NCBI RefSeq assembly: GCF_000410515.1
Contig: NC_021500.1
Span: 3,844,001 to 3,908,000 of the forward strand
Direction: 5' to 3'
DNA: 64,000 nt
Source: Enterobacter sp. R4-368
Lineage (GTDB): Bacteria; Pseudomonadota; Gammaproteobacteria; Enterobacterales; Enterobacteriaceae
Shown in pieces: positions 5,797-58,208 of the stretch (its first letter is position 1; each line of letters opens with the position of its first letter). The position numbers were made by a program, and so were the translations under genes. Below the pieces are notes generated by a model, which was not told the origin of the DNA, ran no database searches, and saw nothing but the letters and a program-made list of their open reading frames with translations.

Positions 5797-5840
5797 ACGA
5801 TAGTGAGCGGCGGCAAAAACCGTCAGGCAGGATCCGCTAA
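5797..5840 (-). promoter_or_regulatory. araBAD core promoter and araI2
   Basis: On the minus strand the -35 hexamer CTGACG (5821-5826) and the -10 hexamer TATCGT (5797-5802) are 18 bp apart, as in E. coli pBAD. The I2 half-site, with core AGCGGATCCTGCCTGA, spans about 5823-5840 and overlaps the -35, the arrangement that lets arabinose-bound AraC contact RNA polymerase. Confidence 0.8.
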
Positions 5841-5843
5841 TCT

Positions 5844-5860
5844 TATGGATTAAAATGCTA
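5844..5860 (-). promoter_or_regulatory. araI1, AraC half-site
   Basis: TAGCATTTTAATCCATA on the minus strand fits TAGC-N7-TCCATA and differs from E. coli araI1 by one base. It sits 21 bp upstream of I2, in direct repeat. Confidence 0.9.
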
Positions 5861-5936: not shown

Positions 5937-6054
5937 CCTTTTTGCCCTGTTCAGCGGCGTTAAAAAGGCGTAATCGCTTTTGTCTGGCGGGATTAGACAA
6001 TTGGCGTGTTTACGCCCTTTGCCTGCGGGCGGCTGAGGAATGACGGGATTCTCA

Positions 6055-6071
6055 ATATGGACAATTGGTTT
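6055..6071. promoter_or_regulatory. araO2, upstream looping operator
   Basis: ATATGGACAATTGGTTT is identical to the core of E. coli araO2. It lies in the araC leader, 211 bp centre-to-centre from araI1 by my count, the known looping distance in E. coli. Confidence 0.85.
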
Positions 6072-6099
6072 CTTTACCAGGCACGGGAGTATTGCGTTT

Positions 6100-6945
6100 A
6101 TGGCTGAATTACAGAACGATCCACTGCTGCCAGGGTACTCGTTTAATGCGCATCTGGTGGCGGGGCTGACCCCCATTGAAGCCGACGGTTATCTCGATTT
6201 TTTTATCGACAGACCGCTGGGCATGAAGGGCTATATCCTGAATCTCACCGTGCGCGGCGAGGGTGTGGTGATGAACCACGGCAAGCAGTTTGTTTGCCGC
6301 CCTGGCGATATCCTGCTTTTCCCGCCGGGAGAAATTCACCACTATGGCCGCCACCCCGACGCCAGCGAGTGGTATCACCAGTGGGTTTACTTCCGTCCAC
6401 GCGCCTACTGGCACGAGTGGCTGAACTGGCCGACACTGTTCGCGCAAACCGGTTTTTACCGTCCTGATGATGCGCATATGGCGCGTTTTCGTGAACTTTT
6501 CGCGCAAATTATCGACGCCGGGCAAAGTGTCGGGCGCTATGCGGAACATCTGGCGATAAATCTGCTGGAGCAACTGCTACTGCGCCGTATGGAAGCGATT
6601 AACGAATCGCTGCACCCGCCGCTGGATAACCGCGTGCGCGACGCCTGCCAGTACATTAGCGATCACCTGGCGGATAACCATTTTGATATCGCAAGCGTTG
6701 CTCAGCATGTTTGCTTGTCGCCTTCACGCCTGTCACACCTTTTTCGTCAGCAACTGGGCGTGAGTGTGTTGAGCTGGCGCGAGGATCAGCGTATCAGCCA
6801 GGCAAAATTACTGCTTAGCACCACGCGAATGCCGATTGCCAGCGTCGGGCGCAATGTTGGTTTTGACGATCAGCTCTATTTCTCGCGGGTTTTTAAAAAA
6901 TGCACCGGTGCCAGCCCCAGTGAATTCCGCGCGGGATGTGAATAA
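6100..6945 (+). CDS. araC: Arabinose operon regulator AraC
   Basis: Dual activator and repressor of the arabinose genes. Residues 1 to about 170 form the arabinose-binding cupin and dimerisation domain with its N-terminal arm. Residues of about 175-281 carry two helix-turn-helix motifs ([19 protein letters not shown] and [20 protein letters not shown]) ending in the AraC signature. The ATG at 6100 is chosen because the protein then begins [15 protein letters not shown] like E. coli AraC and has GGGAG upstream; a longer in-frame start at 6040 would overlap araO2. At 281 residues it lacks the last 11 residues of E. coli AraC, as in Salmonella and Citrobacter. It is divergent from araBAD. Confidence 0.97.
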
Positions 6946-55728: not shown

Positions 55729-56679
55729 TCACTGATTATCCGCTGCCGGGATGCCGAAATCGGGCATCCCGTTTTCTTGCCAGCGAATTGTTTTCAGGCG
55801 GGTATGGCGATTGGGATCGTAAAGCGGATCGCCTTCAATTTCGGTGTAATTCCGTGCGTGATAGACCAGCACATCTTCCCCTTCCGGCGTTTGCGTAAAA
55901 CTGTTGTGCCCCGGGCCGTACTGGTGGTTTTCATAACTGGTTTTAAACACCGGCTGCGGCGATTTATGCCAGTTTTTGGGATCCTGCGGGTTGGCGGTGA
56001 TATCGATCCACAACAAGCCCATACAGTAATTTTCGTCGGTGGCGCTGGCGGAATAACTCACAAAGAGTTTATCGCCGTGGAACAATACCGCCGGGCCTTC
56101 ATTGACCAGAAAACCACGACACTCCCAGTCAAATTCCGGTTTGCTTAACATTACCGGTTCGCCTTTCAGCGTCCACGGGTTTTCCATTTCCGCCAGGTAG
56201 AGGTTGGAGTTCCCGGCAATATGCGGCGCTTTTTGCGCCCATAAATACCAGCGTTTCCCCTGATGCTCAAAGGTGGTGGCATCGAGCGCAAAGGTATCGA
56301 AAGGCGTTTTTACCTGGCCTTTTTCGACCCAGCGACCGCAGAGCGGATCGGCATCCGCGCACTCCAGAACGAACATGCGGTGCTGGAACATATTCAGCGC
56401 ATCCAGCGCTTTGGTCCAGGTCGCGGCAAAGTAGAGATACCATTTGCCATCAATGTGATGCAGCTCCGGTGCCCAGATAAGCTCGCTCATCGGGCCGCTT
56501 TGCGGTTTGCGCCAGACTACCACGCCCTCGGCATCCCGCAGGCCTTCCAGCGTACTGGCGCGGCGGATCTCCAGCCGGTCATATTCCGGCACCGAGGCAA
56601 CGAAGTAATACTCGCCTTGATGGCGCAGGATAAACGGGTCAGCGCGCTGTTCAATAAACGGGTTCGGCCAGTTTTCCAT
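55729..56679 (-). CDS. GH43-family glycosidase, probable alpha-L-arabinofuranosidase or beta-xylosidase
   Basis: A glycoside hydrolase family 43 five-bladed propeller enzyme of 316 residues without a signal peptide, so cytoplasmic. The usual acidic triad can be placed at D14 (RADPFI), D133 (ALDATT) and E194 (VNEGPAV); WAPELH at 69-74 is also typical. It is shorter than E. coli YagH (about 536 residues) and lacks the C-terminal sandwich domain. It shares a base with the end of the GPH symporter gene (TAATG), so the two are one operon. Substrate is inferred: alpha-1,5-arabino- or arabinoxylo-oligosaccharides. The upstream AraC-like site favours arabinosides. Confidence 0.85.
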   Translation of the reverse strand: MENWPNPFIEQRADPFILRHQGEYYFVASVPEYDRLEIRRASTLEGLRDAEGVVVWRKPQSGPMSELIWAPELHHIDGKWYLYFAATWTKALDALNMFQHRMFVLECADADPLCGRWVEKGQVKTPFDTFALDATTFEHQGKRWYLWAQKAPHIAGNSNLYLAEMENPWTLKGEPVMLSKPEFDWECRGFLVNEGPAVLFHGDKLFVSYSASATDENYCMGLLWIDITANPQDPKNWHKSPQPVFKTSYENHQYGPGHNSFTQTPEGEDVLVYHARNYTEIEGDPLYDPNRHTRLKTIRWQENGMPDFGIPAADNQ

Positions 56680-58085
56680 TATGCATTCCTTACGTTATCG
56701 CCCGCCGGTAAATGCTGATTTTCGGTCAGTTCATGGTAGTTGACGCGGCGTTTTTCCAGATCCGCCTGAATCTGTTTCATCAATTCACGGTCGACTTTCA
56801 GTAAGCGCACCACGCCTGCGGTGATCAGGTAGCCGACGCCCGGAATAATGGTAAACAGCAGCATGATGCCGTTAATGGCGCTGGCGCTTTGCTGTTTGGC
56901 TCCGGCGTCATAGCCATACCAGGAGAGCAGGAAACCGACCATCGCCCCGGCAACTGCCAGCCCCACTTTCAGGAAGAACAGGTTGCCGGAGAAGCTCATA
57001 CCGGTAATGCGTTTGCCGGTTTTCCACTCGCCGTAATCATCGACATCCGCCATCAGCGACCAGTGCAGCGGGGAAGGGATCTGATGCAGAATGTTCAGCA
57101 GGAAGTAGAGCACCACAATCAGCACCGTGGCGTGCGGGTCAAAGAAGTAAAAGGCGCAGGAGAAGACCGCCAGCACGATATTGGTCCAGAAGAAGACTTT
57201 CAGTTTACACCAGCGGTCGGTCAGCACTTTTGCCAGCATACTGCCGAGCATCATGCCGACCACGCCAAGGCTAATAAACATCGTCGCGAAATGGGTGCTT
57301 TCCCCCATCACCCAGGTGACGTAATACATGGTGGCCGCCATGCGGATAAAACCAGGGCAAACATTGCAGAGCGTCAGCAGGAGGATGCGCACCCACTGAT
57401 CGTTTTTCCACACGTCTTTGAAATCTTTTTTCAGATCATCATTGGTTGGCACCGCCGGGCGGATACGTTCGCGCACGGTGGCAAAGCAGAACAGGAACAT
57501 ACACATGCCGATAAACGCCAGCACCGTCATCGCCATCTGGTAGCCTTTGGCTTTATCCGCACCGCCGAACCACTCGGCCATCGGCAGCAGCGTGAGCGAC
57601 AACAGCAGGGTGGCAATGCCGACCATCACAAAGCGATACGACTGGCAGGCAACGCGCTCTTTCGGGTCGTTAGTGATAACACCGCCCAGCGAGCAGTAGG
57701 GGATATTGATCGCGGTATAGGTCAGCGACAACAGGAAATAGGTGACAAAGGCATAGATAACTTTGCTGTTATAAGACCATTCCGGCGTGGTGAACATCAG
57801 CACGCTGAAGACGGCGTAAGGTACGGCTATCCACAACAGCCACGGGCGAAAACGGCCATATTTACTTTGTGTCCGGTCAGCGAGCGCCCCCATTAGCGGG
57901 TCAGTCACCGCATCAATCACGCGAATCGACAGCAGTAATACCCCAACCAGCGCAGGTGCGAGGCCGAAGATATCAGTATAGAAATAGTTAACAAACAGCA
58001 TGATAGCGCCAAAGATAATGTTGCATCCGGCGTCGCCCATGCCATAACCAATCTTTTCTTTAACAGACAGTTTGTTGTTGTCCAT
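56679..58085 (-). CDS. GPH-family oligosaccharide:cation symporter, YagG/XynT-like
   Basis: Glycoside-pentoside-hexuronide transporter of the MelB type. The protein has 468 residues with 12 predicted membrane segments. It is very close to E. coli YagG throughout, for example MDNNKLSVKEKIGYGMGDAG and VIDAVTDPLMGALADRTQSK. It probably imports xylosides or arabinosides for the following GH43 enzyme. GGGAG precedes the ATG. In E. coli yagGH sit elsewhere, next to the regulator XynR; no such regulator gene is here. Instead, an AraC-like half-site and a CRP-like site lie upstream. Confidence 0.9.
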   Translation of the reverse strand: MDNNKLSVKEKIGYGMGDAGCNIIFGAIMLFVNYFYTDIFGLAPALVGVLLLSIRVIDAVTDPLMGALADRTQSKYGRFRPWLLWIAVPYAVFSVLMFTTPEWSYNSKVIYAFVTYFLLSLTYTAINIPYCSLGGVITNDPKERVACQSYRFVMVGIATLLLSLTLLPMAEWFGGADKAKGYQMAMTVLAFIGMCMFLFCFATVRERIRPAVPTNDDLKKDFKDVWKNDQWVRILLLTLCNVCPGFIRMAATMYYVTWVMGESTHFATMFISLGVVGMMLGSMLAKVLTDRWCKLKVFFWTNIVLAVFSCAFYFFDPHATVLIVVLYFLLNILHQIPSPLHWSLMADVDDYGEWKTGKRITGMSFSGNLFFLKVGLAVAGAMVGFLLSWYGYDAGAKQQSASAINGIMLLFTIIPGVGYLITAGVVRLLKVDRELMKQIQADLEKRRVNYHELTENQHLPAGDNVRNA

Positions 58086-58163
58086 TGCCGGTTCTCCCTT
58101 TGAGATATGGCATGAAGTATTTGTCTGTAAATTTTTGTTTGCGTAGCAGGATCAGGCCGCAGA

Positions 58164-58180
58164 GATGGACAAAATGGCTA
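58164..58180 (-). promoter_or_regulatory. Candidate AraC half-site of the GPH-GH43 operon
   Basis: Minus-strand TAGCCATTTTGTCCATC fits TAGC-N7-TCCAT and agrees closely with araI1 in this window (TAGCATTTTAATCCATA). It lies about 80 bp upstream of the symporter ATG. A weaker second half, containing GATCCTGC as in araI2, follows about 21-22 bp downstream. Confidence 0.6.
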
Positions 58181-58192
58181 TGGAAAGGAAAG

Positions 58193-58208
58193 TGTGAGGA
58201 AGGTAACA
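58193..58208. promoter_or_regulatory. Candidate CRP site of the GPH-GH43 operon
   Basis: TGTGA-N6-TAACA matches nine of ten consensus half-site bases. Its centre is about 28.5 bp upstream of the AraC-like half-site, compared with about 29.5 bp in the araBAD promoter. Confidence 0.6.

Follow-up and report, generated by a model that had tools for sequence, protein, structure and literature searches.

Probable control by arabinose and cAMP of the araTU operon of Enterobacter sp. R4-368, a known kind of AraC target

The araTU operon of Enterobacter sp. R4-368, which consists of a symporter gene and a GH43 gene, has a promoter that is very probably controlled by arabinose and cAMP, and the operon is the orthologous copy of a Salmonella target already assigned to AraC. 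It was analysed within a stretch of 64,000 nucleotides of contig NC_021500.1 (positions 3,844,001 to 3,908,000), called here the window, in which all positions below are counted. A preliminary description of this DNA had proposed that the operon was recruited into the arabinose regulon. This proposal is supported by the conservation of the promoter in 81 of 81 cases (the window together with the 80 best of 351 related loci, called here the promoter set) and by the reported change of araU along with araBAD, araC and araE in Salmonella. The main inference of that description is right and largely already known, the operon extending a familiar type of AraC target to one more genus; what is added here is the family-wide conservation of the arrangement, the genome-wide specificity of the composite of CRP-like site and half-site, and the non-canonical second half-site. 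For the organism of the window we infer AraC binding, arabinose induction, AraC dependence, substrate and localisation. The features that the argument needs are the following.

58208-58193, minus strand: CRP-like site TGTTACCTTCCTCACA (TGTTA-N6-TCACA), letters read directly
58180-58164, minus strand: AraC half-site 1, araI1-like, TAGCCATTTTGTCCATC (TAGC-N7-TCCAT), letters read directly
58140..58154, minus strand: conserved box TGATCCTGCTACGCA where araI2 and the -35 are expected
58116..58121, minus strand: putative -10 element AATACT (AATAAT in most orthologs), at a conserved place
56679..58085, minus strand: GPH-family sugar:cation symporter gene, ortholog of Salmonella STM14_0178, which we take to be araT (TIGR00792 gph above cut-off; MFS_2)
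55729..56679, minus strand: GH43 gene, araU-like (PF04616; solved relatives 3AKF, 9NXG and 5M8E)
6040-6945, plus strand: araC, the probable regulator (AraC_binding and HTH_18 domains)
5823..5860, minus strand: araI1 and araI2 of the araBAD promoter, the reference within the window and its top composite (35.8 bits)

The CRP-AraC arrangement and its conservation

Both the CRP-like site, judged against the CRP consensus, and half-site 1 lie on the minus strand inside the 171-bp gap before the symporter gene, with a centre-to-centre distance of 28.5 bp. In the araBAD promoter of the same genome the gap after TCACA is longer by one base, so that the distance between the CRP and AraC centres is there about 29.5 bp. 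The preliminary description had reported a CRP-like site and then TAGC-N7-TCCAT on the coding strand of the symporter gene, at about 28.5 bp as against about 29.5 bp in araBAD; the letters are present at that place, both distances were recovered from the sequence, and these two sites, the main part of the observation, are real. The scan with an AraC weight matrix that it had proposed as a check was performed with a matrix of six E. coli AraC half-sites (the E. coli matrix). It gave the 17-mer of half-site 1 a score of 12.4 bits and 6th place among 127,968 window positions; araI1 and araI2 of the araBAD promoter in the window score 23.3 and 12.5 bits with the same matrix.

The probable regulator gene, araC, stands about 51 kb from the araTU promoter. 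As in E. coli K-12, it diverges from the araBAD promoter, the genes on the other side being read as araBAD. The earlier statement that no local regulator gene is present holds in so far as none adjoins the operon, but araC lies within the same window. Among 58 genomes, araT (at least 80% identity) was found in 19, all of which belong to the 25 with AraC (E up to 1e-60). In relatives (loci L161-L179), the araF promoters carry direct AraC half-sites 21 bp apart, CAGC-N7-TCCATA and then CAGC-N7-TCCTTG, and this pair faces away from araF, the same as in K-12.

Absence of the half-site from orthologous promoters, which the preliminary description had regarded as speaking against its reading, was looked for in the promoter set. 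TCACA-N23-TCCAT precedes the operon in all 81 promoters (window and best 80 of 351 loci), with the AGC box exact in 62 and TGTNA-N6-TCACA present in 79 of them. One of the loci (L040) carries TCACA-N23-TCCAT but is outside the 80-row alignment, from which 32 representatives with less than 80% mutual identity were drawn for the column tests. With the E. coli matrix the fixed site was the top forward-strand half-site in 77 of the 81 upstream regions (at most 330 bp each; window and best 80 of 351 loci), and in 72 when both strands were counted. The block is kept in an Enterobacillus locus (L052) though aroP and ampE are both absent from the fetched stretch, and in the one araT-bearing genome with a divergent AraC, of only 58% identity (G030), the araT promoter retains the spacing, with TCCAG in place of TCCAT. 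In the latter genome (locus L027, G030:C1:3096471-3100838) the araTU pair adjoins an MFS-type transporter ORF, and an AraE-like symporter gene lies within about 5 kb. The Salmonella arizonae copy (locus L073) has the same CRP-AraC layout.

The region in the place of araI2

The weak second half-site that had been described 21-22 bp further on fared less well. Its literal GATCCTGC is present, and is also found in the araI2 of the same genome, but the half-site does not rise clearly above permuted columns, and the offset +21 from half-site 1 scored low, -7.1 to -10.8, with three matrices built from the araBAD, araE and araF promoters (12, 17 and 10 distinct sites). The best offsets were +18, +22 and +35, whose scores were equalled by permuted columns in 57, 197 and 46 of 400 trials, respectively, and as a composite of two half-sites the place ranked only 42nd of 383,778 in the window. 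A second AraC half-site at +21 or +22 was rejected, since no register stood clearly above the permuted columns; the direct repeat expected beside the -35 at a distance of 21 bp was not found.

Columns +28 to +40 from half-site 1 are nearly invariant across the 32 representatives, with the consensus ATMCTGCWACGCA (M = A or C, W = A or T). Matches to this pattern are scattered in 32 genomes; within the genus (15 genomes) the pattern matches 39 times and its reversed control 10 times, and no fewer than 8 of those 39 matches lie in araT promoters. The reading of the box as a recurrent element in its own right was considered and not adopted. Further downstream, all 80 aligned promoters (the promoter set without L040) have AATAAT or AATACT at +59, counted from half-site 1, and a consensus scan for a sigma-70-type promoter at this putative -10 region found none. 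The box can be read in three ways: araI2 may be degenerate and overlap an atypical -35, AraC may read the box in another register, or it may be RNA polymerase that reads it.

It is possible, if unlikely, that AraC regulates the operon through a non-standard second register (for example +18), or through one half-site together with RNA polymerase contacts, in a promoter that works differently from araBAD. The offset +18 is the best register for the E. coli matrix (-2.3 versus -7.1 at +21) and also for one araI2 matrix, and the near invariance of the box agrees with such a reading; the 57 of 400 trials in which permuted columns match the score at +18 argue against it, as does the spacing between half-site 1 and the -10, which at 59 here versus 58 counted in araBAD fits the ordinary +21 geometry with a degenerate araI2. 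In a tentative and rather doubtful picture, the araTU promoter would have an AraC geometry unlike that of araBAD, made of one canonical half-site at a fixed CRP spacing and a family-wide invariant box in place of araI2, read by AraC in another register or directly by RNA polymerase. If this were true, AraC activation would be possible without a 21-bp direct repeat. The conserved region that stands for araI2 poses a modest question on the mechanism of AraC activation, one that lends itself to testing.

Under the favoured reading, control of the promoter by arabinose and cAMP, CRP would bind 58208-58193 and AraC 58180-58164, in an arrangement that closely resembles the araBAD and araE promoters. 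When the sugar is available, AraC would sit on half-site 1 as well as on the conserved region beside the -35, bringing RNA polymerase to the -10 around 58116-58121.

Specificity of the composite

The AraC half-site alone, without its CRP half, is not special, and with one mismatch allowed the bare pattern has 597 matches in the genome versus 633 for the reversed control, that is, no enrichment. The composite TCACA-N11..15-AGC-N7-TCCAT has exactly three matches in the same genome, upstream of araBAD, araE and the araTU operon, and none in the control. Over 15 genomes of the genus it has 46 matches, of which 43 precede araBAD, araE or araT and three lie elsewhere, with one in the control. Two genomes without araT (G006 and G008) have two matches each, just those of araBAD and araE, and in 24 genomes outside the family the composite is at chance level (6 matches versus 8 in the control). 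The exact AGC composite recovers the araT promoter in 15 of 19 araT-bearing genomes, the other four being missed because the AGC box varies. With the matrices built from the araBAD, araE and araF promoters, the mean score of half-site 1 over the 32 representatives was reached by none of 400 column permutations; with a matrix restricted to araI2 from araBAD and araE, half-site 1 ranked only 4th of 104 positions. The notion that the half-site is a chance match, with the conserved block being used by CRP and a different regulator of the operon, could draw on the bare pattern being no commoner than its reversed control and on the unsupported second half-site, but it is very improbable and was rejected, given a composite confined to ara promoters in its own genome, the absence of any permutation reaching half-site 1, and a site fixed in 81 of 81 promoters (window and best 80 of 351 loci).

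The operon genes and their relation to known systems

The GH43 gene overlaps the stop of the symporter gene by one base. The symporter passes the GPH model and fails the cut-offs of the YagG equivalog and of a second one, which we take to be of the YicJ type; its nearest named relative (best 80 of 351 loci) is from Kosakonia pseudosacchari, with 99% identity. In the window the pair sits between aroP and ampE, its neighbours being aroP, ampE and ampD. Among the best 80 of 351 loci, GH43 is directly downstream of the symporter in all 80, aroP lies within 400 bp upstream in 68 and ampE follows downstream in 78. E. coli K-12 has ampE immediately next to aroP, without the araTU operon between them, and the operon occurs in 49 of 5426 complete E. 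coli genomes at the place that is empty in K-12 (the query being the Escherichia whittamii copy). The copy of E. coli TUM13936 (NZ_CP134358.1 4057579-4060129, L184) retains the CRP-AraC layout. Two Klebsiella records of a plasmid collection (NZ_OP378649.1 and CP125156.1) hold GH43 beside an MFS gene with 86% identity; CP125156.1 is 5.4 Mb long and therefore looks like a chromosome. A terminator-like hairpin with nine pairs and a T-rich tail (55747-55771, plus strand) lies within the 3′ end of the GH43 coding sequence and would serve the convergent ampE.

The GH43 protein matches SaAraf43A and AtAbf43C with E-values of 2e-111 and 5e-126, and its acid triad, placed by motif, is D14, D133 and E194, residues that fall within conserved blocks of the alignment with 3K1U. 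The GH43_26 relatives are all alpha-1,5-arabinofuranosidases (PMC12493170), and the assignment to this subfamily was made by close match to characterised members with the subfamily names of that paper. The protein groups with the GH43_26 exo-1,5-alpha-L-arabinofuranosidases, an activity that is predicted from these matches, and on this ground the arabinoside substrate proposed in the preliminary description would hold, the protein being only 24% identical to YagH. A simple hydropathy count found no signal-like stretch at its N-terminus, and the enzyme may cleave imported short arabinosides in the cytoplasm. AraT would import such arabinosides, most likely alpha-1,5-arabino-oligosaccharides, from which the cytoplasmic GH43_26 enzyme would release L-arabinose; this would feed AraBAD and itself be the inducer.

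In the work of Stringer and colleagues from 2014, araT and araU are said to have been named from AraC ChIP-seq in Salmonella, reportedly with RNA-seq content as well. It is reported that araU (STM14_0177) changed 2.4-fold between 5 and 40 mM arabinose, together with araBAD, araC, araE and ygeA, and araU is placed among the arabinose genes by reference to Stringer et al. (2014), a paper with an expanded core AraC regulon in its title (PMC8341724). Since the operon is already counted among the arabinose-switch genes of Salmonella, the find is sound and mostly not new. In a further source, STM14_0178 is a Na+/galactoside symporter and STM14_0180 is aroP (PMC10715015), which puts STM14_0178 two locus tags before aroP. 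The GH43 protein STM0148 was reported as an arabinofuranosidase for dietary arabinose that is required for gut expansion on diets with arabinose-containing fibre, and the abstract has the enzyme freeing arabinose from dietary polysaccharides (PMC10016319). From position and description, STM0148 appears to be STM14_0177 (araU). The promoter, which is shared by many genera of Enterobacteriaceae, plant-associated ones included, would thus place under the arabinose switch an operon reported to aid Salmonella on dietary arabinose. The enzyme is suggested here to work inside the cell on imported short arabinosides and not directly on polysaccharide, which differs in emphasis from that abstract.

The E. 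coli yagGH-xynR system likewise pairs a GPH symporter with a GH43 enzyme, and it is highly unlikely that the araTU operon is a xyloside system of this kind under a xylose or xylonate regulator. The shared gene pair and the depositor label beta-xylosidase, carried by two of the seven matching solved chains, would agree with it, whereas the symporter is 38% identical to YagG and below its model cut-off, the GH43 protein of 316 aa is 24% identical to YagH (536 aa) and has GH43_26-type relatives, and yagGH has an adjacent xynR and an annotated D-xylonate transporter and xylosidase, while no xynR-like gene was seen among the neighbours aroP, ampE and ampD. A yagGH-type xyloside operon was rejected on the low identities and the failed YagG cut-off. 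With SaAraf43A and AtAbf43C (GH43_26) the window's enzyme shares the last acid spacing of 61; it differs from them in the first (119 versus 115), and has neither a CBM42 domain nor a signal-like N-terminus.

The E. coli araBAD promoter likewise has a CRP site followed by a direct AraC half-site, at 29.5 bp versus 28.5 bp here; the stretch TCACACTTT-CTTTCCATAGC of the araTU promoter corresponds to TCACACTTTGCTATGCCATAGC in araBAD and is one base shorter. The close likeness spans TCACACTTT...CATAGC, which is wider than the sites first described, whereas the araTU promoter is without a recognisable araI2 in the +21 register. The araTU operon of Salmonella enterica (STM14_0178/STM14_0177) belongs to another genus, the nearest named relatives of the window being Kosakonia, and likewise consists of a GPH symporter and a GH43 gene beside aroP.
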